From assembly GCA_013696905.1 (NCBI GenBank), contig JACCXP010000200.1:1-12164 (forward strand): a stretch of DNA of 12,164 bases, given 5' to 3'. The position numbers were made by a program, and so were the translations under genes. The DNA is from Thermoleophilaceae bacterium. GTDB taxonomy: Bacteria; Actinomycetota; Thermoleophilia; Solirubrobacterales; Thermoleophilaceae. This document shows, in pieces, positions 1,437 through 12,164 of this stretch. Within the stretch, counting starts at the first letter, position 1, and each line of letters begins with the position of its first letter. The notes beneath the pieces were generated by a model. The model did no database searches and was not told where the DNA came from. It worked only from the letters and a program-made list of their open reading frames with translations.

Positions 1437-3614
1437 TCAGTACGCGGCGAGCACGCGGTAGAGCGTGTCGCGCTGGGCCGCCGGGCGCCCGGCGGCGTGG
1501 GCTGCGCCGATCAGCTCGTCCGGGGTCAGCAGCGTGCCGTGCTCGGCGCCCGCCATGCGCGAGATCGATTCCTCCATCAACGTTCCGCCGAGGTCGTTGA
1601 CCCCCCAGTCGAGCGCCTCGGTGGCGGCGTCGAGGCCCATCTTGACCCAGCTCGCCTGCAGGTTCGCGATCGTCTTGCCGAGCGCGAGCCGAAACACCGC
1701 GGTGTGCTTGAGGTTCTCCGCACGCGAGATCTCCTCGATCCCGTGCGTGCGCCCGAGCAGCGTCTGGTACGGGACGAACGACAGCGGCACGAACTCCGTG
1801 AAGCCACCCGTCCGCTCCTGGAGCGCCCGCACGACGCGCATGTGCTCGGCGAGCTCCGAGGGCTCCTCGACGTGGCCGAACATCACGGTCACCGTCGAGC
1901 GCAGGCCGGCCACGTGCGCGGCCTCGATGATCTCGACCCAGCGCGCCACCGGCAGCTTGTTGGGCGAGATCCGCTCGCGCACGCCGTCGTGGAGCACCTC
2001 GGCAGCGGTGCCCGGGGTCGAGTCGAGCCCGGCCGCGCGCAGTCGCTCGAACACCTCACGCGGCGAGAGCCCTGACGTCGCGCACATGTGGTCGACCTCC
2101 ATCGCCGAGTAGGCGTGCAGGTGCACGTCGGGCGCGATCTCCTTGGCGAGTCGCAGCCAGCCCTCGTAGTCCGCGAGCCGCCAGTCGGGATGGATACCCG
2201 ACTGCATGCAGATCTCCGTCGCGCCGAAATCGAGCGCATCCTCGACGCGTCGCACGAACTGATCGCGGTCGTGCTCGTAGGCGTCGGGTGAGCGCCGGCC
2301 CTGCCCGAAGCCGCAGAACGCGCAGCCGACTACGCACACGTTCGAGACGTTGATGTTGCGGTTGACCACGAACGTGACGGTGTTCCCGGCCAGCTCCGCG
2401 CGCAGCTCGTCGGCGGCCTGGCGGATGTCCTCGATCGCCTCGGGCCGGCGCTCCGCGAACAGCGCGGTCAGCTCGTCCGCCGACAGGCGCTCGCCCGCGC
2501 GCCCGCGAGAGATCGCCGCGGGCACGAGCTCGGTGCGAAGCGAGCGTGCGTCGCCGCGGCCCGACCCTCGACTCGGTATGAAGCTCCAATAGCGGGCCTT
2601 GACCACGTCGAGCACGCCCTGCTCGAGCCACTCGGGCGCGAGGTAGCGCGGGTAGACGCACAGCCGCTCGGTCAGCGCGTGGCCGCGCGCGGCGAGCTCG
2701 CGGCGCATCCGGTGCGGCGAAGGAAAGGGGTGCTCCGGCGAGATGTGGTCGCCGTTCGCCGACAGGCCGCCGAGGTCGGTCGCTCCCTCGTCGACGAGCA
2801 CCGGCCACCAGTCCGACAGGTTCGGCGGGATCTGGACGCCGACGTCCGGCATCAGCTCGCGCGAGGCCCGCACGAGCTCGCGCATGTCGTCGAGCGAGAC
2901 CGGCGTCGCCCACGCCGGCGCGGGCGGGGGCTCGAAGGCGCGCTGGGAGCGCTGCGCCGAGTCGGCGATCTCGCCGAGCTCCTCCCCGTAGTAGGACGGA
3001 TGCGGGACGTAGCTCTGCAGGATCACCTCCTGCAGGTGGCCATGCTCGGCGTGGATCTCGGCGAGCGCCTCGAGCGAGGCGAGCCGCTCGGCGCGCGTCT
3101 CCCCCACTCCGACGAGGATGCCGCTCGTGAACGGGATCCGAAGCTCGCCAGCGGTCCTGATCGTCTCGAGCCGGGCGGCCGGGTGCTTGGTCGGCGAGCC
3201 GGCGTGGACGGTCTCCATCAGCCGCTCGGAGATCGACTCGAGCATCAGCCCCTGCGAGGCTGTCACCTCGCGCAGCCGTGCGAGGTCGGTGCGCGGCAGC
3301 ACGCCGAGGTTGGTGTGCGGCAGCAGCCCGCGTGCGAGCGCGCGCTCGCACGCCCACGCCACGTAGGAGGTGAAGTCGGCGTGGCCGTGGCGCTCCAGCC
3401 GCGCCGCCACCTCGGCGTTCACCTCCGGGCGCTCCCCCGTGAGCACCAGCAGCTCCTTGGCGTTGCGCCGCACGGCCTCGTCGAGCAGGCGCTCGACCGC
3501 TTCCGGTGCGTGCAGGTGCGCGCTGTGGGTGGCGAACGAGCAGTACTTGCAGTAGCACCGACAGGTGCGCGAGAGCGACAGCGTGAAGCTGCGCGAGAAG
3601 GTCACCCGGCGCAT
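1437..3614 (-). CDS. fbiC: FO synthase, CofG-CofH fusion (coenzyme F420 biosynthesis)
   Basis: This 725-residue protein carries two radical-SAM domains. It makes the deazaflavin FO, the chromophore of F420, from 5-amino-6-(D-ribitylamino)uracil and tyrosine. The CofG half has its [4Fe-4S] motif at C18-x3-C22-x2-C25 (CRCYCKYC), followed by the family phrases [14 protein letters not shown] and [13 protein letters not shown]. The CofH half, from about residue 345, has C427-x3-C431-x2-C434 (CVVGCAFC) after NRNINVSN, then [19 protein letters not shown] and [18 protein letters not shown]. It is shorter than the mycobacterial protein (about 856 residues) but both domains are complete. I chose the ATG at 3614 because CofG homology begins there; the open frame upstream (to 4280) is a shadow of the acyltransferase gene. 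There is no Shine-Dalgarno sequence, but a TANNNT box lies 7 nt before the ATG. The acyltransferase gene ends 29 nt upstream and the soxB fragment starts 9 nt downstream. Confidence 0.96.
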
Positions 3615-3643: not shown

Positions 3644-4429
3644 CTACCGAGCACTCGACGCGGCCAGCGCCGCCACCGCCTCGGCCGCCCGCGCCATCAG
3701 GTCGAGCGGGTCCTCGTCGGGCGAGGGGTAGACGGGGCGCCCGAAGGCGACGGTCGTCTTCCCGCGCTGGATCACGCCGCGCCCCTTCGGCATCAGCAGC
3801 GCCGTCCCACCCACGTGGACCGGGATCAGCGGCACGCCGGCGGCGACGCAAAGGCGCGCGACCCCGGAGCGGAAGCCCTCCATGCCCGATGTGCGCGTGC
3901 CCTGCGGGTAGAGCAGGACGTTCCAGCCCTCGCGCAACAGCTCGGCGGCATCCGCGAGCCCGCGCGACTCGCCGCCGCGGTCGAACGGCACGGTGTTGAT
4001 CCAGAGCCCGGCGGCGACCGCGTAGCGGCGCCTGCGGTAGAAGCGGTCGCTCGCGGCGCCGATCACCGTGCGCGTGCGCCAGGCGCGCGGCAGGGCGGCG
4101 AGCACGAGCGGAGTGTCCATGTCGCTCGCGTGGTTCGGGGCGAGCACGGCCGGCTGGGGCACGTGCATGAGATCGGCGGCGCCGATCACGCGCGGGTGGG
4201 CGACGAAGCGGGTCACCGGGAAGAGGACCGTCTGCTGGAGGGCCTCGCGGGCGAGCGCGGGGCCGGGACGGCGCAGCCACGCCTGGTCAGGCACCTCGAC
4301 CCCCTCAGACCAGGGGTCGATGCCGCTTGCGACTGTGCGCCAGCGGGCGGGCACGCGCGTGGCGCGGCCGGGCTTACCTCCCGCTCCGGCGAGGCGCTCG
4401 AGCGCGCGCCCGCCGGCGGCGAACCTCAC
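3644..4429 (-). CDS. PlsC-type 1-acylglycerol-3-phosphate acyltransferase family protein
   Basis: This 261-residue protein has the LPLAT/PlsC motifs in order: block I N99-H100-ASDM-D105 (the NHx4D catalytic His and Asp), block II around GLWINTVPFDRGGES (about 141-155), block III YPQGTRT (174-180) and block IV VPLIPVHVGG (199-208). Such enzymes move an acyl chain from acyl-CoA or acyl-ACP to a glycerolipid or related hydroxyl at the membrane face. Block III has Gln where the usual motif is EGTR. The first 60 residues are not conserved acyltransferase. I chose the GTG at 4429 because it overlaps the LarA stop as GTGA, a translational-coupling arrangement; no better start lies downstream before the domain. 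The gene ends in TAG at 3644. Linkage to the LarA homologue suggests its substrate may come from that pathway, but ordinary phospholipid synthesis is an equally simple reading. Confidence 0.88.
   Translation of the reverse strand: MRFAAGGRALERLAGAGGKPGRATRVPARWRTVASGIDPWSEGVEVPDQAWLRRPGPALAREALQQTVLFPVTRFVAHPRVIGAADLMHVPQPAVLAPNHASDMDTPLVLAALPRAWRTRTVIGAASDRFYRRRRYAVAAGLWINTVPFDRGGESRGLADAAELLREGWNVLLYPQGTRTSGMEGFRSGVARLCVAAGVPLIPVHVGGTALLMPKGRGVIQRGKTTVAFGRPVYPSPDEDPLDLMARAAEAVAALAASSAR
4296..4320 (-). repeat. 8-bp inverted repeat inside the acyltransferase gene start
   Basis: TCGACCCC (4296-4303) and GGGGTCGA (4313-4320) are perfect reverse complements around a 9-nt loop. The hairpin falls at about codons 37-45 of the acyltransferase, in its poorly conserved N-terminal part. 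It could act in RNA folding after the LarA-acyltransferase junction, or be a by-product of GC-rich coding sequence. No T-run follows, so it is not a standard terminator. Confidence 0.35.
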
Positions 4430-6087
4430 TCGACCTCGCAATAGAAGAGCGGCGGGCAGTGGAAGTGGGTGAGCGAGGGGCTGCGTCCCACCACCTGCTC
4501 CGCCATCTCGAGCGCATCGCGCATCGTGTCCGCGCGGCGGAAGCCCATCCGCCGGCACGCCTCGGGGTGGCCGCCGACGAAGATCACCTCGCCGACGTGC
4601 TCGAGCGCGTGCGCGCCCCAATACCACATGTAGAACGGGTGTGCGCCGTGGTAGGCGTAGCTCGTGCGGAAGAGGTGGCGGTACCACTCGTCCTCGGCGT
4701 AGGAGCGCTCGAAGCGCCGCTCGACCTCCGCCGGGTCGGTCGTCTCGGCGAGCACTTCCTCGTAGAAGTCGATGTAGGAGGGGTGGTGCACGGGGTGGAA
4801 GTCGCGCTCGACCGGGTGGGTGAAGATCAACACGCCGCCGGGGCGCACGAGCGGCTTGCCCTGGTAGAGGTTGAAGAAGTAGCCGAGCGCCGTGCTCATC
4901 ACGAGCACCGGGTTCATGATCGAGTTGACGTTGTAGGGGGAGATATAGGGGATCCCCGCCGTCACGATGTCGGCCTGGCCGCGCACGAGCACCGACTGCT
5001 GCGCGGCGCACAGGTCGAGCGACACCTCGTGCGCCGCGTCGGCGGCGCCGGCGCTTACGCCGATCACCCCGTACGGCGAGGCCGTGCGCTGGAAGAGCGT
5101 CCGCCGCGTCCGCGCGGGCGCACGGTCGGTGAGGCGCTTGACCCCGGCGAAGATCGCCTGCTCGCGGCCCGACCAGCGGGCCTCGGGCTTCGCGAGGAAG
5201 CCGAGTGGATCGGCGTACATCTGGTTGTTGAGGGTCGCCTCGACGTGGAAGACCGGCACCGCAGCCTCGACGACGTCGCCCTGGCGGAAGGCGGAGTGGT
5301 GGAGCGCCGAGTGCTCGGGGTCCATGAAGGAGCGCGAGTGGCGCAACGAGTGCACGTTGTGGTGCGCCGAGATCGAGCGGTAGCTGCCGAGCCCGATCGC
5401 GGGCGACTTCTTGCCACCCTGGAGCGTGGCGGTGATGACGTGCACGTAGACGAGCAGGTCAGACTCCGCGGCGCGGCGGTTGAGCGTGACCGGCTCGCCG
5501 TCTGAAGTCGGGCCGAGCTCGACGTTTCCGTCTGGATCCTCGGCGTCGTGGTTGTAGAGGCGGTCGGGATGGAAGGCGTCGAAGACGGCGGAGCCGACCG
5601 TCCGCCGCAGCTCGGCGGGGGTCATGCGGCGGTGGATCGCGAGCGCGGCGATCAGGTGGATGTCCTCGACGCCGGCGCGGTAGGCGCGCTCGAGCACCTG
5701 CTCGATCACGCGCTGGCGCACGTCGGGGAGCTGCATCGGCGGCAGCGGCACCGACAGGTCGTCGAAGGCGATCGTCAAGCGCATGCCCGGGCGCAGCAGC
5801 GAGTCGAGCGGGTCCATCTCATGCGGCGCGTCGAGCGCGGCCGCGATGCCGGACTCGACGTCGGCGAGGCCCTTCATCGGCGGCGGCGGGTAGACGACCC
5901 GCGAGCCCACCGGCAGGCGCTCGAGCCGGAAGGACTCGCCCGCCTGGAAGACCGTCGGCGGCGACTTGTCGGTGACCTCGACGACCGACGCCTCGCGCTC
6001 GGCCGCAGGACGACGGCGCGCGAGCCCGCCGAGGCGCTCGACCACCGTGCCCCGCACGGGCTTCGCCGGCCGGCCGGTGACGCTCAC
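4426..6087 (-). CDS. larA: LarA-family nickel-pincer racemase/epimerase homologue, extended form
   Basis: This 553-residue protein belongs to the LarA (DUF2088) family, whose members racemise or epimerise 2-hydroxy acids by hydride transfer with the nickel-pincer nucleotide. The family phrases are AFDDLSVPLPP (107-117), AIHRRMTPAEL (150-160, His152 matching the catalytic His108 of Lactobacillus LarA), YNHDAED (178-184) and HVITATLQGGKKS (216-228). His216, Lys226 and His242 have exactly the spacing (+10, +16) of His174, Lys184 and His200, which bind the cofactor and nickel in the lactate enzyme. It is over 120 residues longer than lactate racemase (about 425), with about 45 unconserved residues at the N-terminus and a long C-terminal part rich in aromatic residues and His. 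It is therefore unlikely to be plain lactate racemase, and the symbol marks family only. The GTG start overlaps the dehydrogenase stop (GTGA) and its own stop overlaps the acyltransferase start (GTGA), so the three are probably co-translated. Substrate unknown. Confidence 0.88.
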   Translation of the reverse strand: MSVTGRPAKPVRGTVVERLGGLARRRPAAEREASVVEVTDKSPPTVFQAGESFRLERLPVGSRVVYPPPPMKGLADVESGIAAALDAPHEMDPLDSLLRPGMRLTIAFDDLSVPLPPMQLPDVRQRVIEQVLERAYRAGVEDIHLIAALAIHRRMTPAELRRTVGSAVFDAFHPDRLYNHDAEDPDGNVELGPTSDGEPVTLNRRAAESDLLVYVHVITATLQGGKKSPAIGLGSYRSISAHHNVHSLRHSRSFMDPEHSALHHSAFRQGDVVEAAVPVFHVEATLNNQMYADPLGFLAKPEARWSGREQAIFAGVKRLTDRAPARTRRTLFQRTASPYGVIGVSAGAADAAHEVSLDLCAAQQSVLVRGQADIVTAGIPYISPYNVNSIMNPVLVMSTALGYFFNLYQGKPLVRPGGVLIFTHPVERDFHPVHHPSYIDFYEEVLAETTDPAEVERRFERSYAEDEWYRHLFRTSYAYHGAHPFYMWYWGAHALEHVGEVIFVGGHPEACRRMGFRRADTMRDALEMAEQVVGRSPSLTHFHCPPLFYCEVE

Positions 6088-7235
6088 GCCGCCTCGCGCA
6101 GGTCGAAGACGGTCTTCACGCGCCCGCTGCGGGCCGCGCGGGGGGCCTGCTCAAGCGCGGAGCGGAAGTCGCGCAGGTCCCACCCGCGCGCGACCAGCCG
6201 CCCGGGGCGCAGGCGCAGCGCGAGCTCGATCGCGTCGGGGAAGTCGCGCTGGTAGCCGTAGGCCCCGCGCACCACGATCTCGCGCTGCCAGGCGATCGCG
6301 AGGTCGGCCGAGATGGTGCTCGGCATGCCCGCAAGCACGACGGTGCCGCGCGGCCGGGTGGCGGTGATGGCCGCCTCGATCGACGCGCCGGAGCCGACGC
6401 AGTCGAGCACGGAGTCGAAGCCGCCGAGCAGGAGCTCGCGGCCCTGGTGGCCGACCAGCCGCCGGGCGCCGGTGATGCGCGCGCCCTCGAGGTGGAAGGA
6501 CTCGGGCGCCGCGGTGTGGTCGGCTCCGAGGCGGCGGGCCTCGTGCGCCTGCCCCGGGTGCTTCGCGACCGCCAGCACCGTCGCGGCGGGAGCGAGCTCG
6601 CGCAGCGCCGCCACCGCGAGCAGGCCGATCGTCCCCGCTCCGATCACGGCGATCGCCTGCCCGGCGGCGGGCTCGAGCTCGCGCACCACGTGCATCGCGC
6701 AGGCGAGCGGCTCCACGAAGACCGCGTCCTCGTCGCTCAGCTCATCGGGCACCCGGTGGAGCTGCGAGTCGTGGGCGACGAGCCCCTCGCTCCAGCCGCC
6801 GCCCGTGTCGCGGCAGAAGCCGACCTGAAGCCCCGCCGAGACGCTGCCGTCGACGACGTTGCGACAGAGCGCCTCGAAGCCCTCGGAGCACTCCGGGCAC
6901 GGCGGGTCGATCGCGCGCGCCGTGCACCCGAGCGCGGGCTCGACCACGACCCGCTCGCCCCGCCGCGGTCCCGACGCGACCCGCCCGACGACCTCGTGAC
7001 CGGGCACGAACGGCCCGGAGGTGACCGAGGCGAGATACGGCGACGCGGCGCCAGACACGAGCGCCTGGTCCGAGCCGCAGATGCCGGCGAGCAGGGGACG
7101 CACGGACATCCAGTCACTCGCGGGCAGCCGCGGCGGGCGCGTCTGCGTGAGCCGCAGCGCTCCAACGCCCGATCGCCGCGACACGCGCGCCGCGACGTGG
7201 CGCGCAAGCGTCGGTGTGTACTCGAGCGCCAGCAC
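6084..7235 (-). CDS. Zinc-dependent MDR-family alcohol/polyol dehydrogenase
   Basis: This 383-residue medium-chain dehydrogenase has the expected catalytic zinc ligands: Cys53 in GICGSD, His80-Glu81 in PGHEVVGRV and Glu175 in VEPLACAMHVV. A structural-zinc loop with Cys104, Cys113, Cys116 and Cys124 has its first Cys set further away than in the classic Cx2Cx2Cx7C arrangement. The Rossmann motif VIGAGTIGLLAVAAL is at about 197-209. It should oxidise an alcohol or reduce a carbonyl with NAD(P). The Glu ligand and motif style recall sorbitol, threonine and glucose dehydrogenases, but the substrate is not readable. The GTG at 7235 follows the fusion gene by 15 nt, with GGAG as a plausible ribosome binding site. 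Its stop overlaps the LarA start by 4 nt. That coupling suggests it shares a metabolite with the LarA homologue, for example oxidising one stereoisomer, which is inference. Confidence 0.9.
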   Translation of the reverse strand: MLALEYTPTLARHVAARVSRRSGVGALRLTQTRPPRLPASDWMSVRPLLAGICGSDQALVSGAASPYLASVTSGPFVPGHEVVGRVASGPRRGERVVVEPALGCTARAIDPPCPECSEGFEALCRNVVDGSVSAGLQVGFCRDTGGGWSEGLVAHDSQLHRVPDELSDEDAVFVEPLACAMHVVRELEPAAGQAIAVIGAGTIGLLAVAALRELAPAATVLAVAKHPGQAHEARRLGADHTAAPESFHLEGARITGARRLVGHQGRELLLGGFDSVLDCVGSGASIEAAITATRPRGTVVLAGMPSTISADLAIAWQREIVVRGAYGYQRDFPDAIELALRLRPGRLVARGWDLRDFRSALEQAPRAARSGRVKTVFDLREAA

Positions 7236-7250
7236 AGCCAGGGCTCCGCC

Positions 7251-9548
7251 TCAGGCCTCGATCGCGGCCGGTGGCGCGCTGCGCGCCCCGGGCTCGGTCT
7301 TCCACTCGAGCAAGGCCCAGCCGCGGCGGCGGGCCTCGCGCGCGAGGCGGAAGTCCGGGTTGACGGCATAGGGGTGGCCGACGGCCTCGAGCATCGGCAG
7401 ATCAGACACCGAATCGCCATAGGCGTGACAGTCCGCGAGCTCGACACCGTGCTCGACGGCGAGGCGGGCGGTCAGCGACGCGCGCCCGTCGGCGGACAGC
7501 GGCGGCTCGGCGAGCTCGCCCGTGAAGGCTCCCCGGCGCTCGATCAGGCGGGCGGCGATCAGCTCGTCGGCGAGGTGCTCGAGCGGCTTGACGAGGAAGT
7601 CGAGCGCGCCGGTCAACAGCACGACGCGGTCGCCGCGGCGGCGGTGGCGACGGATCCGGCGCACGGCCTCCTGCTGCACGTGCGGCAGGATGAACTCGGA
7701 CAGCACGCCGGCCGCCTGCTCGCGCAGCTCGGCGGCCGGGAGATCGCGGTAGTTGCGGTAGAAGCGGCGGTTGAAGTCGACGCGCGAGCGGCGGTCGGAG
7801 GCGATGTAGCCGGGCGCTCGCGCGGCGAGGCCAAGCGTCCACAGCAGGCGGTCGGGTACCGGCATCTCGCGCGTCCGAAGCCAGGCGTAGAAGTGTGCGA
7901 CGGTCGTGTCGAGGACGACGCCCTCGACGTCGAAGAAGGCGAGCGCGGGCGGCCCCTCGGCGATCGCGCCGAGCTCGTCGCTCGCGACCCGTGGAGCGCT
8001 CGACGCCTGCCAGGGGCGGATCACCTCGCGAAGCGCGGGCAGGTGGATCTCGGTGAGGTAGCTCGGCCAGTCGATCCGCTCGACGTCGAAGGAGAAGCGC
8101 TCGGCGTCGTCGGGGTGCAGGGAGTCGAGCAGCTCGCGCGTGTAGCGGTCGTCGAACATGCAGTCGAGCTCGACGTAGGGGCCATAGATCTGCGCCAGGC
8201 GGCGCAGGCGCTCGAGTGCGCGGCGCTCCTGGTGCAGGCGCCGATCCACGGCCTCGCCGCCGAGGAGGGGGATACGCGCCGCCAGCCGACGTCCGATCCG
8301 GATCGCCTGGTCGCCGCGGTCGAGCGCCTTGAAGACGCGCGTGCTCGTGGAGTACTTCCAGTCGGGCACCTCGACGGGATAGCCGTCGTCGTCCGGCAGC
8401 GGGCGCTCGCGAAAGTAGGAGACGATCTCCTCGGCGGCATCCTCGAGCAGCAGCGGGTTGCGGGCGCCCGAGGCCACGTTCATGGTGCGCGGGCCGCCCT
8501 CTGGTGGATGCGCGGCTGCGGCGATGCAGGCGTTGGCGACGATGTCGACCGGCACGAGGTCGAGCCGCACCGAGCGATTGCTCGGGAAGCGGGTGATGAT
8601 CCCGCGCCCGTAGGCCAGGATGATCGGGTCGGCCACCTTGACTCCCTCGATCCAGCCGGGGAAGGGGTCGCGCAGCGCCGACTCGATGATCGTCGGGCGA
8701 ACGATCGTCAGCGAGGAGATGCCCTCGGCGAGCAACGCCCGCTCCGTCAGCGCCTTGGACAGGCCGTAGGCGTCCGACCACCCGAGCGCGCGCGAGCGCT
8801 CGCGGCCGCGCTCGGATAGCTGTGTGCCTACCCACCTGCGGCGGGCCTGCTCGGCGCGCGCGCCGATCGCCGGCGCACCCGCCGGGCCGACCTCCTCGCG
8901 AGCCTCGGCGACGAAGCGGTGCTGATGCTCGGGCAGGCGCGACTCGATCTCGATGTCGCGCCGCCACGCACGCGCGACGTCGAGCTCCGCGCCCATGTCC
9001 ACCGCCGGCTCTGCCGGAGCCTGGCCGGACGGACGCTCGAGCACGAGGCCCGTGCGCATGCCGGCGGCATACGCCGTGGAGACGTGCACGAAGTTTGGCT
9101 CGGAGCCCGACCGGCGCAGCGCCTCGACGATCGCGAGCGTGCCGAGCACGTTCAGCTCGAGCATCTCGTCGAGCGGCTGCTCGAACGACACCGAGGCCGC
9201 GCAGTGGATCACGGCGTCGACGTCTGAGAGGTCGAGCGGAGCCTCGCGCCCGAGGCCCGGGGCGGTGACGTCGCCCGCGAAGGCAGACAGCCGCCCGGTC
9301 TCGAGCGTCAACTCGGTCTCGACGCTTCGCCCGCCGTCGAAGGCCCGTGCGCCGAGCACCTGGTGCCTGAGCCGCTCTGTGGCGGCCTCGTCGCTCGGAG
9401 CGCGCAGCAGCAGGCGGATCGCTCCAAGCTCCGGCAGCTCACGCAGGCAGGTAGCGAGCACGGCCTTGCCGAGGAAGCCCGAGGCGCCGGTGATGAGGAG
9501 CGTCTTGCCGGTCAGGCGCTCGGCGATCGTCTGGGATGGGCCGGGCAC
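7251..9548 (-). CDS. Fatty acyl-CoA reductase-like SDR fused to HAD-IB phosphatase
   Basis: This 765-residue protein joins two enzymes. Residues about 14-480 are an extended SDR of the fatty acyl-CoA reductase type: NAD(P) motif TGASGFLGK (20-28), FVHVSTAYAAG, the catalytic Y261-GLS-K265, then a C-terminal FAR (male-sterility-like) segment with IYGPYVELDCMFDD and SFDVERIDWPSYLTEIHLPALREV. Residues about 530-745 are a HAD-IB (phosphoserine-phosphatase-like) domain: motif I FDVEGVV with Asp540, motif II VVLLTGA, and motif IV AYGDSVSDLPML. The second acid of motif I, normally Asp and the general acid/base, is Glu542. Acyl-CoA reductases of this kind make fatty alcohols or aldehydes, so a role in lipid or wax formation is likely; what the phosphatase acts on is unknown. 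The start is GTG at 9548, the first in frame, with no good ribosome binding site. The next gene, the dehydrogenase, starts 15 nt after its stop. Confidence 0.85.
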   Translation of the reverse strand: MPGPSQTIAERLTGKTLLITGASGFLGKAVLATCLRELPELGAIRLLLRAPSDEAATERLRHQVLGARAFDGGRSVETELTLETGRLSAFAGDVTAPGLGREAPLDLSDVDAVIHCAASVSFEQPLDEMLELNVLGTLAIVEALRRSGSEPNFVHVSTAYAAGMRTGLVLERPSGQAPAEPAVDMGAELDVARAWRRDIEIESRLPEHQHRFVAEAREEVGPAGAPAIGARAEQARRRWVGTQLSERGRERSRALGWSDAYGLSKALTERALLAEGISSLTIVRPTIIESALRDPFPGWIEGVKVADPIILAYGRGIITRFPSNRSVRLDLVPVDIVANACIAAAAHPPEGGPRTMNVASGARNPLLLEDAAEEIVSYFRERPLPDDDGYPVEVPDWKYSTSTRVFKALDRGDQAIRIGRRLAARIPLLGGEAVDRRLHQERRALERLRRLAQIYGPYVELDCMFDDRYTRELLDSLHPDDAERFSFDVERIDWPSYLTEIHLPALREVIRPWQASSAPRVASDELGAIAEGPPALAFFDVEGVVLDTTVAHFYAWLRTREMPVPDRLLWTLGLAARAPGYIASDRRSRVDFNRRFYRNYRDLPAAELREQAAGVLSEFILPHVQQEAVRRIRRHRRRGDRVVLLTGALDFLVKPLEHLADELIAARLIERRGAFTGELAEPPLSADGRASLTARLAVEHGVELADCHAYGDSVSDLPMLEAVGHPYAVNPDFRLAREARRRGWALLEWKTEPGARSAPPAAIEA

Positions 9549-9558
9549 GGAAGCGCGG

Positions 9559-9564
9559 ACCTTA
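9559..9564 (-). promoter_or_regulatory. Possible -10 box before the reductase-phosphatase fusion gene
   Basis: On the minus strand TAAGGT (TANNNT) lies 10 nt upstream of the GTG at 9548, just after the G/C hairpin. With the usual 6-7 nt to the first transcribed base, the mRNA leader would be only about 3 nt. No ribosome binding site is visible, which fits near-leaderless expression. The spacing is looser than at the other candidate boxes in the window and no -35 is clear. Confidence 0.3.
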
Positions 9565-9570
9565 GCGCCT

Positions 9571-9588
9571 ACCCCCCGAATGGGGGGT
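9571..9588 (-). terminator. G/C hairpin between larE and the fusion gene; possible terminator or attenuator
   Basis: ACCCCCC (9571-9577) and GGGGGGT (9582-9588) form a perfect 7-bp stem with a 4-base loop in the 63-nt gap after larE. On the minus strand the RNA would fold as a very stable hairpin 23 nt past the larE stop. There is no U-run after it, so it is not a textbook intrinsic terminator. It could cause pausing or Rho-linked termination, protect the 3' end of the cofactor mRNA, or separate two transcription units. Confidence 0.45.
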
Positions 9589-9611
9589 TCTGCAGGGCCT
9601 CGCCCAGGCCC

Positions 9612-10451
9612 TCACGCTCGCGAGGCCTGCGGCATCCGGAGCGTAAGCGCGTCGTTGAGGCGGCCCGACCGGAACGGCTCCCTGTCGATCTCGGCGCGCT
9701 CGTAGCCGGCCGATCGGATCGCCGCCTCGAGGGCCGTGCTCTCGCCCGGCTCGAGCGCGCGCTCGAGCTCCGGCGCGCCGAGCTCGAGCCGGCCCAGATC
9801 GCCGTGGTGGCGCACGCGCAGCTCCCGGTAGCCGAGGGCGCGGGCAGCGCGCTCGGCGCGGTCGACGCGGTCGAGTGTCGACGGATCGACGGGCGTCCCG
9901 TAGGGCACGCGCGAGGCCAGGCACGGGCTTGCGAGCTTGTGCGCGCTCGGCAGCCGCAGCCGCTCGGCGAGCGCGCGCACCTGCGCCTTGCCCACGCCGG
10001 CCTCGAGCAGCGGGTGCACGACGGCGTGCTCGGCGGCGGCGCGCAGGCCGGGGCGCCAGTCGCCGGTATCGTCGGCGTTCGCCCCCGACAGCAGCGCGGC
10101 GTATCCGCGCCTCGACGCGAGCGCGGCGAGCGTCTCGTAGAGCTCGGTCTTGCAGTGGTAGCAGCGGTCGGGGTCGTTGCGGCGGTAGCCCTCGCGCGCC
10201 AGCTCGTCCGTGGTGACGGTCTCGTGGCGGATCCACGCCGCCGCGGCCACCGCGCTCGCTCCGGCGAGCTCGCCCGCGGCGAGCGCCGGTGAGACGGCCG
10301 TCACGGCCAGCGCGCGGTCGCCGAGCGCGCGCGCGGCCAAGGCGGCGACCAGCGACGAGTCGACGCCGCCCGAGAAGGCGACGACGACGCTGTCGAGAGC
10401 GGCGATGCGGTGCTCGAGGCCCTTCTGGAGAGCGGCGAGATGCCGGCTCAT
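9612..10451 (-). CDS. larE: LarE, sulfur transferase for nickel-pincer cofactor synthesis
   Basis: This 279-residue PP-loop ATP pyrophosphatase adenylates the pyridinium carboxylates made by LarB and replaces their oxygen with sulfur, giving the dithio-acid that binds nickel. The PP-loop SGGVDSS is at 27-33. Other family phrases are DRCYHCKTELY, LLSGANADDTGDWRPGLRAAAEH, HPLLEAGVGKAQVR and SPCLASRVPYGTPV. The length matches the family. It has exactly three cysteines, Cys97, Cys100 and Cys177. Cys177 corresponds to the sacrificial Cys176 of Lactobacillus LarE, while the three together match the type that can hold a [4Fe-4S] cluster and transfer an extra sulfide catalytically. The ATG at 10451 overlaps the larC stop (ATGA), so it is translationally coupled to larC. 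The stop is followed by a strong hairpin. Confidence 0.95.
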   Translation of the reverse strand: MSRHLAALQKGLEHRIAALDSVVVAFSGGVDSSLVAALAARALGDRALAVTAVSPALAAGELAGASAVAAAAWIRHETVTTDELAREGYRRNDPDRCYHCKTELYETLAALASRRGYAALLSGANADDTGDWRPGLRAAAEHAVVHPLLEAGVGKAQVRALAERLRLPSAHKLASPCLASRVPYGTPVDPSTLDRVDRAERAARALGYRELRVRHHGDLGRLELGAPELERALEPGESTALEAAIRSAGYERAEIDREPFRSGRLNDALTLRMPQASRA

Positions 10452-11629
10452 CGCCTCACCTCACGCTCCGCGGCGGCGAGCGCGGCCGCCCACACGGACT
10501 TCACGGTGTGACCGCTGCCTAGCGCGACCCGCATGCAGTCGTCGTGCTCAGGCGCGAGGTTGAGCAGCTCGCCACCGAGGCGCCCGACCTTCACGCGCAC
10601 CGGCTCGCCGTGCACGCGCACGACCTCGAAGTCGCGTTCGAGCTCAACGCGCTCGAGGTGCGCGATCCGCAGCCCCAGTGCCGTCGTCGTGCGCAGGATC
10701 GCGTCGGCCACGGGGCGCTCGGCCTCAGGCCGCGCGAGCGCGGAGATCACGAGGCCGGGGCGCCCTTTCTTCATCTGCGCAGGCGTCGTCCACACATCGA
10801 GCGCGCCGGCCGCGAAGGCGGCGTCGGCGGCGTCCGGCACGAGCTCGGGAGCCATGTCGTCGAGGTTGGTCTCGATCAGCGACACGACCGCGTCCGCCCG
10901 GTCGCCGAGCCACTCGCCGACCAGTACGCGCACGAGGTTCGGCCGCTCCGCGAGCTCCCCCGAGCCGGCGCCGTAGCCGACGGCCTCGAGCTGCATCGGC
11001 GGCAGCGGCCCGTAACCCTCCGCAAGCGACGCCACGAGTGCGGCGCCGGTGGGGGTCACGAGCTCGGCCGACACGTCGACGCCGTGCAGCGGCGCGCCCT
11101 TCAGGAGCTCGAGCGTGGCGGGCGCGGGCAGTGGCAGCCTGCCGTGGGCGGCGTCGACGAACCCGCGCGGAGCCGGGAGCGGCGAGCACACGAGCCGCTC
11201 GATGCCGAGGTCCTCGAGCGCGAGTGCTACGCCGCAGACGTCGGCCAGAGCGTCCAATGCGCCGAGCTCGTGGAAGTGCACGTCCTCAGGCGCGACGTCA
11301 TGCACCGCCCCCTCGGCCTCGGCGAGCCGCCGGAACGTCTCCTGGGCACGCACCCGCGCGCGCTCGGGGAGGCCCGCCGTGTCGATCAGCTCGCGCACCT
11401 GGAGCCAGCGCCGGGGCGTGTCCTCGACCGGGGCGATCACCTCGAGCCGCGCGGCGGCTATGCCATGGCGCTGGGTGCGCGACAGCTCGAGTCGCAGGCC
11501 GTCGACGGCGAGCCCGCCGAGGCCGGCGCGCACTCCGTCGGCGTCGGCGCCTGCGTCGATCAGCGCGCCGAGCAGCATGTCCCCGGCGACACCGGCCACG
11601 CAGTCGACGTAGAGCAGGCGACCTGGCAT
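10448..11629 (-). CDS. larC: LarC, nickel-insertion cyclometallase for the pincer cofactor
   Basis: This 393-residue protein is a full-length LarC, which uses CTP to insert nickel into the dithio precursor and form the Ni-C and Ni-S bonds. Family signatures are VDCVAGVAGDMLLGALIDAG at the N-terminus, HFHELGALDALADVCGVALAL, GFVDAAHGRLPLPAPATLELL, VGYGAGSGEL, ETNLDDMAPEL and TTPAQMKKGRPG. The gene is one uninterrupted frame, unlike Lactobacillus plantarum, where a programmed frameshift joins larC1 and larC2. The ATG at 11629 is forced as the earliest start by an in-frame TAA 9 nt upstream. No ribosome binding site is present, but a TANNNT box ends 6 nt before the ATG. The larB gene ends 73 nt upstream, and larE overlaps the 3' end by 4 nt. 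Confidence 0.95.
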   Translation of the reverse strand: MPGRLLYVDCVAGVAGDMLLGALIDAGADADGVRAGLGGLAVDGLRLELSRTQRHGIAAARLEVIAPVEDTPRRWLQVRELIDTAGLPERARVRAQETFRRLAEAEGAVHDVAPEDVHFHELGALDALADVCGVALALEDLGIERLVCSPLPAPRGFVDAAHGRLPLPAPATLELLKGAPLHGVDVSAELVTPTGAALVASLAEGYGPLPPMQLEAVGYGAGSGELAERPNLVRVLVGEWLGDRADAVVSLIETNLDDMAPELVPDAADAAFAAGALDVWTTPAQMKKGRPGLVISALARPEAERPVADAILRTTTALGLRIAHLERVELERDFEVVRVHGEPVRVKVGRLGGELLNLAPEHDDCMRVALGSGHTVKSVWAAALAAAEREVRR

Positions 11630-11635
11630 CGAGCG

Positions 11636-11641
11636 AGATTA
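11636..11641 (-). promoter_or_regulatory. Candidate -10 box for a leaderless larC mRNA
   Basis: TAATCT on the minus strand (within the overlapping GATAATCT) ends exactly 6 nt before the larC ATG, the same spacing as TAGGGT before the beta-propeller gene at 77. An in-frame TAA and the lack of any Shine-Dalgarno sequence support initiation at the 5' end of the mRNA. It lies in the AT-richer 73-nt gap between larB and larC, so larC-larE may have their own promoter besides any read-through from larB. That gap also holds a weak TGCAG/CTGCA inverted repeat (11663-11676). No good -35 is visible. Confidence 0.45.
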
Positions 11642-11702
11642 TCGAGGGCTCAGGAGGGAGATTGCAGGGCACTGCACAACTCAAATCGCATGCGCGTGCA
11701 CC

Positions 11703-12164
11703 TCACTGCGCGCCCCCGGCGGCGCGGGCGATCCGCGCGGCGATCGTGCCGGCGCCGAAGCCGTCGTCGATGTTGACGACGGCCACCCCGGCGGCACAGG
11801 AGACGAGCATCGACAGCAGCGCGGAGATGCCACCGAAGGCCGCTCCGTAGCCGGTGCTCGTGGGCACGCCGATCACCGGCGCTGCGACGAGGCCACCGAC
11901 CACCGACGCGAGCGCCGCGTCCTGCCCGGCCACGACGACGACGCAATCCGCGCGCCCGAGGTCCGCGAGCGCTGGCGCGAGCCGGTGAAGCCCCGCGACG
12001 CCGGCGTCCTCGTGCAGCGAGACGGTCGTGCCGAGCAGCTCGGCACGCACGCGCGCCTCGTGCGCCACGGGCCCATCCGAGGTGCCGCCCGAGACGATCG
12101 TCACCTGACCGCAGGCCGCCGGCAGCGCACGCGCCACCCAGGCGAGGCGCGCGCGCGCGTGCTC
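11703..12164 (-). CDS. larB: LarB, pyridinium-3,5-biscarboxylic acid mononucleotide synthase (5' end outside window)
   Basis: The last 153 codons of larB are present and the frame runs open through the right edge, so roughly 100 N-terminal residues are missing. LarB carboxylates the nicotinate ring of nicotinic acid adenine dinucleotide and releases AMP, the first step of nickel-pincer cofactor synthesis. It shares the AIR-carboxylase (PurE-like) fold. Signatures seen are VSGGTSDGPVAHEA, VVAGQDAALASVVGGLVAAPVIGVPTSTGYG, ALLSMLVSCAAGVAVVNIDDGFGAG. The conserved Cys in the SCAAG segment is the residue implicated in covalent intermediate formation in characterised LarB. A GTG at 12137 is an internal Val codon, not the start, since the residues before it also fit the family. 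The gene leads the cofactor run and ends in TGA 73 nt before larC. Confidence 0.93.
   Translation of the reverse strand, partial: EHARARLAWVARALPAACGQVTIVSGGTSDGPVAHEARVRAELLGTTVSLHEDAGVAGLHRLAPALADLGRADCVVVVAGQDAALASVVGGLVAAPVIGVPTSTGYGAAFGGISALLSMLVSCAAGVAVVNIDDGFGAGTIAARIARAAGGAQ

Follow-up and report, generated by a model that had tools for sequence, protein, structure and literature searches.

The closest described relatives of the system reported here are the lar operon, in which the lactate racemase LarA is accompanied by LarB, LarC and LarE, and the LarA homologues that have been sorted into further groups. According to the accessible text of PMC7583248, a Frankia homologue of group 14 (LarAH14) was purified and displayed none of seven tested activities, and the available part of PMC12611868 states that groups 14 and 15 are without an equivalent of His174 and that LarASp, which is encoded near carbohydrate genes, was found with an unknown 316-Da ligand. 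Here we analyse a window, the whole stretch of 12,164 nucleotides of contig JACCXP010000200.1 from a Thermoleophilaceae bacterium (assembly GCA_013696905.1), that encodes a LarA homologue together with a fatty acyl-CoA reductase (FAR) fused to a HAD-IB phosphatase-like domain (FAR-HAD), a zinc medium-chain dehydrogenase/reductase (MDR) and a PlsC-type acyltransferase. Our results indicate that these genes are firmly associated, and that the unit is probably part of a pathway not yet studied, whose product may be an unusual lipid.

No description of the FAR-HAD/MDR/LarA/PlsC unit was found in the literature searched (subscription papers and supplements lay outside its scope), nor any paper there in which 'lactate racemase' and 'fatty acyl-CoA reductase' occur together. 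The main text of PMC7583248, as far as it is accessible, does not describe these partners, which may already figure in its Table S1, where the contexts of the groups are given by COG. The accessible texts of PMC11770544 and PMC11796402 contain nothing on group 14, and that of PMC10351704, which presents wax-ester gene clusters, makes no mention of a FAR-HAD/LarA unit.

The association was examined in two sets. Contigs were scanned with the LarA protein of the window, which gave at least 580 confirmed relatives, and the best 80 were kept; one of these (L005) comes from the same strain as another (L004), leaving 79 loci. FAR-HAD lies upstream of LarA in all 61 loci with room for it, and PlsC lies downstream in 68 of 69 (the exception being L066), which places the neighbourhood beyond chance. 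The MDR gene stands between HAD and LarA in 40 of the 61 loci, and FAR and HAD form one open reading frame (ORF) in 74 of the 74 loci where both were found. Because this set was chosen by likeness to the window LarA, an evenly drawn sample of 396 Actinomycetota genomes was also searched. Eighty-eight carriers of the LarA homologue were counted, namely 86 above the cut-off of the model NF052592 and two large fragments (G386 and G560); the model matched at E <= 1e-60 in 108 genomes, and the 20 that were excluded hold more distant homologues and contig-edge fragments (e.g. G425, G428 and G551). FAR-HAD was found at E <= 1e-60 in 91 of the 396 genomes, and 84 genomes contain both proteins (Fisher p = 5e-72, without phylogenetic correction). 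LarA occurs without FAR-HAD in G435, G496, G649 and G655, and FAR-HAD without LarA in G336, G358, G428, G535, G580, G612 and G620, among which G428 holds an uncounted LarA fragment. In 71 of the 84 genomes the two genes are neighbours on the same strand, FAR preceding LarA and the starts lying less than 4.5 kb from each other; in seven they are further apart on one contig and in six they are on separate contigs. A related LarA subfamily (506-540 bits; families f26, f32 and f40) is present in 13 genomes, none of which belongs to those with FAR-HAD.

The other two partners differ in constancy. An MDR match (E <= 1e-50) is present in 78 of the 80 carriers checked and immediately precedes LarA in 66 of these, and the two carriers without one (G515 and G359) both belong to family f23. 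PlsC was matched at E <= 1e-20 in 50 of the 80, 49 of these directly beside LarA; at this threshold no match was obtained in the remaining 30, which comprise all 27 f23 carriers among the 80 plus G304, G305 and G445. Moreover, the pairwise distances of LarA follow those of FAR-HAD, PlsC and MDR (Spearman 0.87, 0.85 and 0.76, respectively), though shared ancestry by itself would be expected to produce some correlation. The original prediction held that the neighbourhood would be incidental if relatives carried the LarA homologue without the reductase-phosphatase, dehydrogenase and acyltransferase, and proposed a comparison of gene order and of the co-occurrence of fusion and acyltransferase; FAR-HAD accompanies LarA in 84 of 88 carriers, and the comparison reveals a conserved unit in which FAR-HAD is near-constant and PlsC is found in 50 of 80. 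Its inclusion of the lar cofactor genes in the set did not hold up, with larC occurring anywhere in the locus in only 10 of the 35 best-80 loci that have long flanks. FAR-HAD, MDR and LarAH14 therefore make up the conserved core, to which most lineages other than f23 add PlsC, and larBCE often lies elsewhere.

Around this core, the commonest flanking ORF cluster in the 80 loci is a divergent upstream TetR-type gene (40 loci; its member in L009 was confirmed by Pfam). By eye, MurF-like ORFs were recognised in the flanks of 39 loci, aconitase-like ones in 29 and MFS transporter-like ones in 10; the MurF- and aconitase-like ORFs are taken as shared synteny. Likewise by eye, three f23 loci have protoglobin-, GAF- and MOSC-like genes between MDR and LarA, and L126 also has amidohydrolase-, Rieske- and permease-like genes; these extra genes are taken as incidental. 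Two apparent gene fusions, P0183 (MDR-LarA) and P0228 (LarA-PlsC), have arginine-rich out-of-frame junctions, and were set aside as frameshift artefacts.

The LarA homologue (positions 4426-6087, minus strand; 553 residues) scores 819.1 bits against the LarAH14/15/16 model NF052592, whose curated cut-off is 740, and 69.1 bits against the lactate racemase model NF033504, whose cut-off is 460, which bears out the earlier view that it stands outside the classical lactate racemase role. In an alignment of 81 rows, K227 and H243, the equivalents of the thioamide lysine K184 and the nickel ligand H200, are present in every row, as are H152 and D110, the equivalents of the first catalytic histidine H108 and of D72. 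The second catalytic histidine, H174, falls within a four-residue deletion that leaves the window LarA with a shorter loop; no histidine is conserved there, 78 of 81 rows having Asn at position 216 and the window and two of its kin having His. At the position of R75, which contacts the cofactor phosphate and the substrate carboxylate, the alignment holds Leu in 78 rows and Val in three (V113 in the window) and no Arg. P384 stands at the position of H306, and the polar residues Y385, N386, H480 and H483 of the C domain are invariant in the 81 rows. The protein is an orphan member of the LarAH14/15/16 family, and its residues predict a single-histidine site of the nickel-pincer type. Ordinary 2-hydroxy-acid racemisation is doubtful because the second catalytic histidine and the carboxylate-binding arginine are both lost, and the suggestion that the enzyme inverts an ordinary hydroxy acid is disfavoured.

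More remote LarA-like proteins were also seen. Those of L090-L111 and L117-L123 share 24-29% identity and match NF052592 strongly; the four that were aligned (L091, L093, L109 and L123) are without the equivalents of H108, K184 and H200, so NF052592 also captures proteins that are probably devoid of the nickel-pincer cofactor. A second subfamily (L133-L136; 39-42% identity) keeps the cofactor residues and has no FAR match nearby. L133 has an adjoining CoA-transferase III, an 87% identical relative of which lies beside LarA in L136; a glycyl radical enzyme adjoins LarA in L135, and a B12 radical SAM protein occurs in the context of L114. A hint to the substrate was sought in the contexts of these FAR-HAD-less subfamilies (L114, L133, L135 and L136), which have no common theme.

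In the FAR-HAD fusion (7251-9548, minus strand; PF07993, PF03015 and PF12710), FAR covers residues ~1-515 and the HAD-IB domain residues ~530-750. The NAD-binding motif TGxxGF and the SDR motif Y261-x3-K265, conserved to at least 97% across 75 rows, mark the former as a fatty acyl-CoA reductase, with 7eoz (232 bits) as its nearest solved protein by sequence; the latter keeps the nucleophile D540 in 75 of 75 rows together with T646 and D712/D716, and is nearest to 3fvv and phosphoserine phosphatases. The zinc MDR (6084-7235, minus strand; 383 residues; PF08240 and PF00107) resembles polyol and ketose reductases: its nearest solved proteins are ketose/sorbitol dehydrogenases, the best being the ketose reductase 1e3j, and C53, H80, E81 and E175, each conserved to at least 97% across 48 rows, include what we take to be the Cys/His/Glu equivalents of the catalytic zinc ligands. 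The PlsC-type protein (3644-4429, minus strand; 261 residues, GTG start; PF01553) has H105 and D110 conserved to at least 97% across 74 rows, presumably the H-x4-D motif of the PlsC/LPLAT family. Its nearest solved protein is 5kym, and it scores 33.5 bits against the 1-acylglycerol-3-phosphate acyltransferase model TIGR00530, below the cut-off of 102.95. A lipid product is suggested solely by the FAR and PlsC families.

Gene calls in the window were checked by Pfam and NCBIfam models, and overlaps were read from the DNA. The seven genes larB, larC, larE, FAR-HAD, MDR, LarA and PlsC follow one another in that order on the minus strand, with 4-nt overlaps at larC/larE, MDR/LarA and LarA/PlsC (the GTG start of PlsC lying on the LarA stop), as the original prediction had described. 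larB (11703-12164) is cut off by the end of the window, and its C-terminal 153 residues score 184.5 bits against NF033503 (cut-off 175). larC (10448-11629), for nickel insertion, carries LarC1 and LarC2 in one frame and is above the cut-offs of TIGR00299 and NF052512, and larE (9612-10451), for the sacrificial sulfur transferase of nickel-pincer synthesis, reaches 295 bits with TIGR00268 (cut-off 150). The gap of ~63 nt between larE and FAR-HAD contains a perfect, GC-rich 7-bp hairpin (9571-9588, minus strand; loop ATTC, no T run), a possible regulatory site or transcript boundary, and because of this gap larBCE and the remaining genes may be separate transcripts. The window stems from a draft genome (2.24 Mb, 434 contigs, completeness 86%) in which Lar_N matches only once at E <= 0.001.

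Beyond PlsC on the same strand lies the F420 gene fbiC (1437-3614), for which the CofG and CofH models are above cut-off and the full-length CofGH model gives 635 bits against a cut-off of 1018 (a 712-residue piece was scanned). As a candidate part of the core it was rejected: in L001-L111, matches above 150 bits occur only in L084, which is the window itself, and in L002, where fbiC lies ~2.6 kb beyond PlsC; L141 has fbiC pieces on the opposite side. An N-terminal fragment (~82 residues; 1128-1402) of a choline dehydrogenase-like GMC oxidoreductase, the match to which ends just before the end of fbiC, indicates either that this gene is truncated or that the assembly has a junction here. On the plus strand, 77-1081 encodes an SMP-30/gluconolactonase-like protein whose score of 23.6 falls short of the Pfam cut-off of 26.3.

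The gene association is an observation, and the chemistry that follows is proposed from the protein families. We speculate, somewhat short of an even chance, that the unit is a self-contained pathway in which FAR-HAD, MDR and PlsC make, oxidise and acylate a polyol or lipid intermediate, one secondary alcohol of which is altered by a single-histidine nickel-pincer enzyme. LarAH14 would load the nickel-pincer nucleotide, supplied by larBCE from the same or another place in the genome, on K227 and H243, and, with H152 as its sole acid/base, would abstract a hydride from the secondary alcohol C-H of a non-carboxylate polyol or polyol phosphate and return it, thereby inverting the carbon or relocating the carbonyl. 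The MDR, being of the sorbitol/ketose reductase type, might interconvert the same hydroxyl and keto forms via NAD(P)H. FAR would turn acyl-CoA into a long-chain alcohol or aldehyde, the fused HAD domain would strip a phosphate, and PlsC would esterify the product into an unusual polyol-based or ether/diol-type lipid. The distribution of the cofactor genes accords with this to a degree: 77 of the 88 carriers have LarC (E <= 1e-20), as against 170 of the 308 other genomes.

Several observations weigh against this pathway. Even at E 0.001 LarC is absent in 11 of the 88 carriers, of which four have LarE above cut-off and seven have neither; G538 (98% complete) and G566 (96%), the source of loci L140 and L142, have neither above cut-off, and their LarA proteins keep the cofactor residues all the same. 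Draft gaps, divergent genes or loss might account for these carriers. Within f23, the R75 position is Cys in three of five rows (L128, L130 and L132), and Thr replaces Y486 in four rows as well as in L131. Of the 61 best-80 loci, 21 have HAD and LarA without an intervening MDR, acylation by this PlsC is not essential given the 30 carriers without a match, and the co-occurrence p value is uncorrected for phylogeny. Furthermore, in HAD phosphatases the nucleophile Asp is followed by a general-acid Asp at +2; here 68 of 75 rows, including the window, carry Glu two positions after D540 and seven carry Asp, so that phosphatase activity of this domain is uncertain.

There is a smaller chance that LarAH14 acts on the hydroxylated lipid tail. 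A 1,2-diol or a 2-hydroxy aldehyde would then arise when FAR reduces a 2-hydroxyacyl-CoA, and long-chain diol lipids would result once LarA and MDR had set or erased the C2 stereocentre. This would suit the Sterile domain of the FAR family, the hydrophobic Leu or Val where other LarA proteins hold the carboxylate-binding Arg, and the loci without MDR, since MDR and LarA would offer alternative routes through a single keto form. Diol lipids occur in Thermoleophilum, on which the literature search gave no relevant paper. However, the carriers include actinomycetes for which we know of no diol lipids, the invariant polar residues of the C domain suit a polar substrate better, and the closest solved relatives lie in carbohydrate loci, as stated in the accessible part of PMC12611868.

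It is rather unlikely that the unit is catabolic, degrading a chiral polyol derivative or sugar acid, with FAR and PlsC serving other acyl substrates and no lipid being made. Other LarA homologues are thought to be catabolic in the accessible text of PMC7583248. The likeness of MDR to sorbitol, ketose and idonate dehydrogenases points the same way, as do the divergent TetR-type ORF and the MFS transporter-like ORF, ~8 kb upstream where present. The conserved row, however, contains no transporter, kinase or aldolase, and the motifs of FAR are kept, acyl-CoA reduction being usually biosynthetic.

We consider it improbable that the LarA homologue has drifted to a non-catalytic or non-nickel protein and that the unit is independent of the cofactor. 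The carriers without LarC, the loss of R75 and H174, and the inactivity of Frankia LarAH14 in the seven assays (accessible text of PMC7583248) would agree with such drift. It sits poorly with the enrichment of LarC among carriers and with the invariance of the K184, H200, H108 and D72 equivalents in 81 of 81 rows, in contrast to four more distant homologues, which are without them.

It would be tempting to go further and cast LarAH14 as a nickel-pincer epimerase at C2 of glycerol phosphate or acyl-glycerol phosphate, converting sn-glycerol 3-phosphate to sn-glycerol 1-phosphate (G1P) via a hidden ketone like dihydroxyacetone phosphate, with MDR acting on the same ketone and PlsC acylating the product. 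We hold this to be a long shot, albeit one compatible with the lost carboxylate-binding arginine, the single histidine, the polyol-type MDR and the adjoining PlsC. As far as the text of PMC13400652 is accessible, either enantiomer of glycerol phosphate is taken by PlsY and PlsC, and where most bacteria obtain G1P is still an open question; the only source named is G1P dehydrogenase (AraM; an archaeal pathway in FCB bacteria), and unknown G1P mechanisms are called for. Last, that the neighbourhood is incidental is hardly credible in view of the co-occurrence and gene-order data, the counts of which only shared ancestry, uncorrected, would soften.

Whichever reading holds, an orphan LarA branch is present in about one fifth of the sampled Actinomycetota (88 of 396) with one fixed partner set, which suggests polyols, hydroxy-lipids and glycerol phosphates as candidate substrates. 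The role of single-histidine LarA homologues becomes directly testable in cultured carriers, which by their named records include Actinomadura livida, Actinoallomurus spadix, Solirubrobacter deserti and Actinopolymorpha alba, and the FAR-HAD fusion can be used as a sequence tag for the pathway. If true, the G1P conversion would be a new bacterial source of the 'archaeal' stereochemistry.

Compared with known systems, the window LarA shares with Frankia LarAH14 both its NF052592 family and the missing His174 equivalent. By sequence and fold, its closest solved structures are LarASp and LarABw (PDB 9q2u, 9q3k and 9q3j), which likewise have a single catalytic histidine. However, these have a loop Asn and Lys at the R75 position, whereas the LarAH14 of the window has a loop four residues shorter, its family has Leu or Val (Cys in some f23 proteins) at R75, and P384 replaces H306; LarASp and LarABw also belong to carbohydrate loci, and LarAH14 stands beside FAR-HAD and PlsC. 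The lar operon is alike in its cofactor synthesis genes and in the N-domain cofactor site, but its LarA belongs to a model that the window protein falls far short of, has other partners, and keeps the two defining residues that are gone here. The FAR, finally, is like the alcohol-forming reductases of the 7eoz type in its reductase and Sterile domains and motifs, and differs from them in being fused to HAD-IB in every locus where both were found and in being tied to LarAH14.

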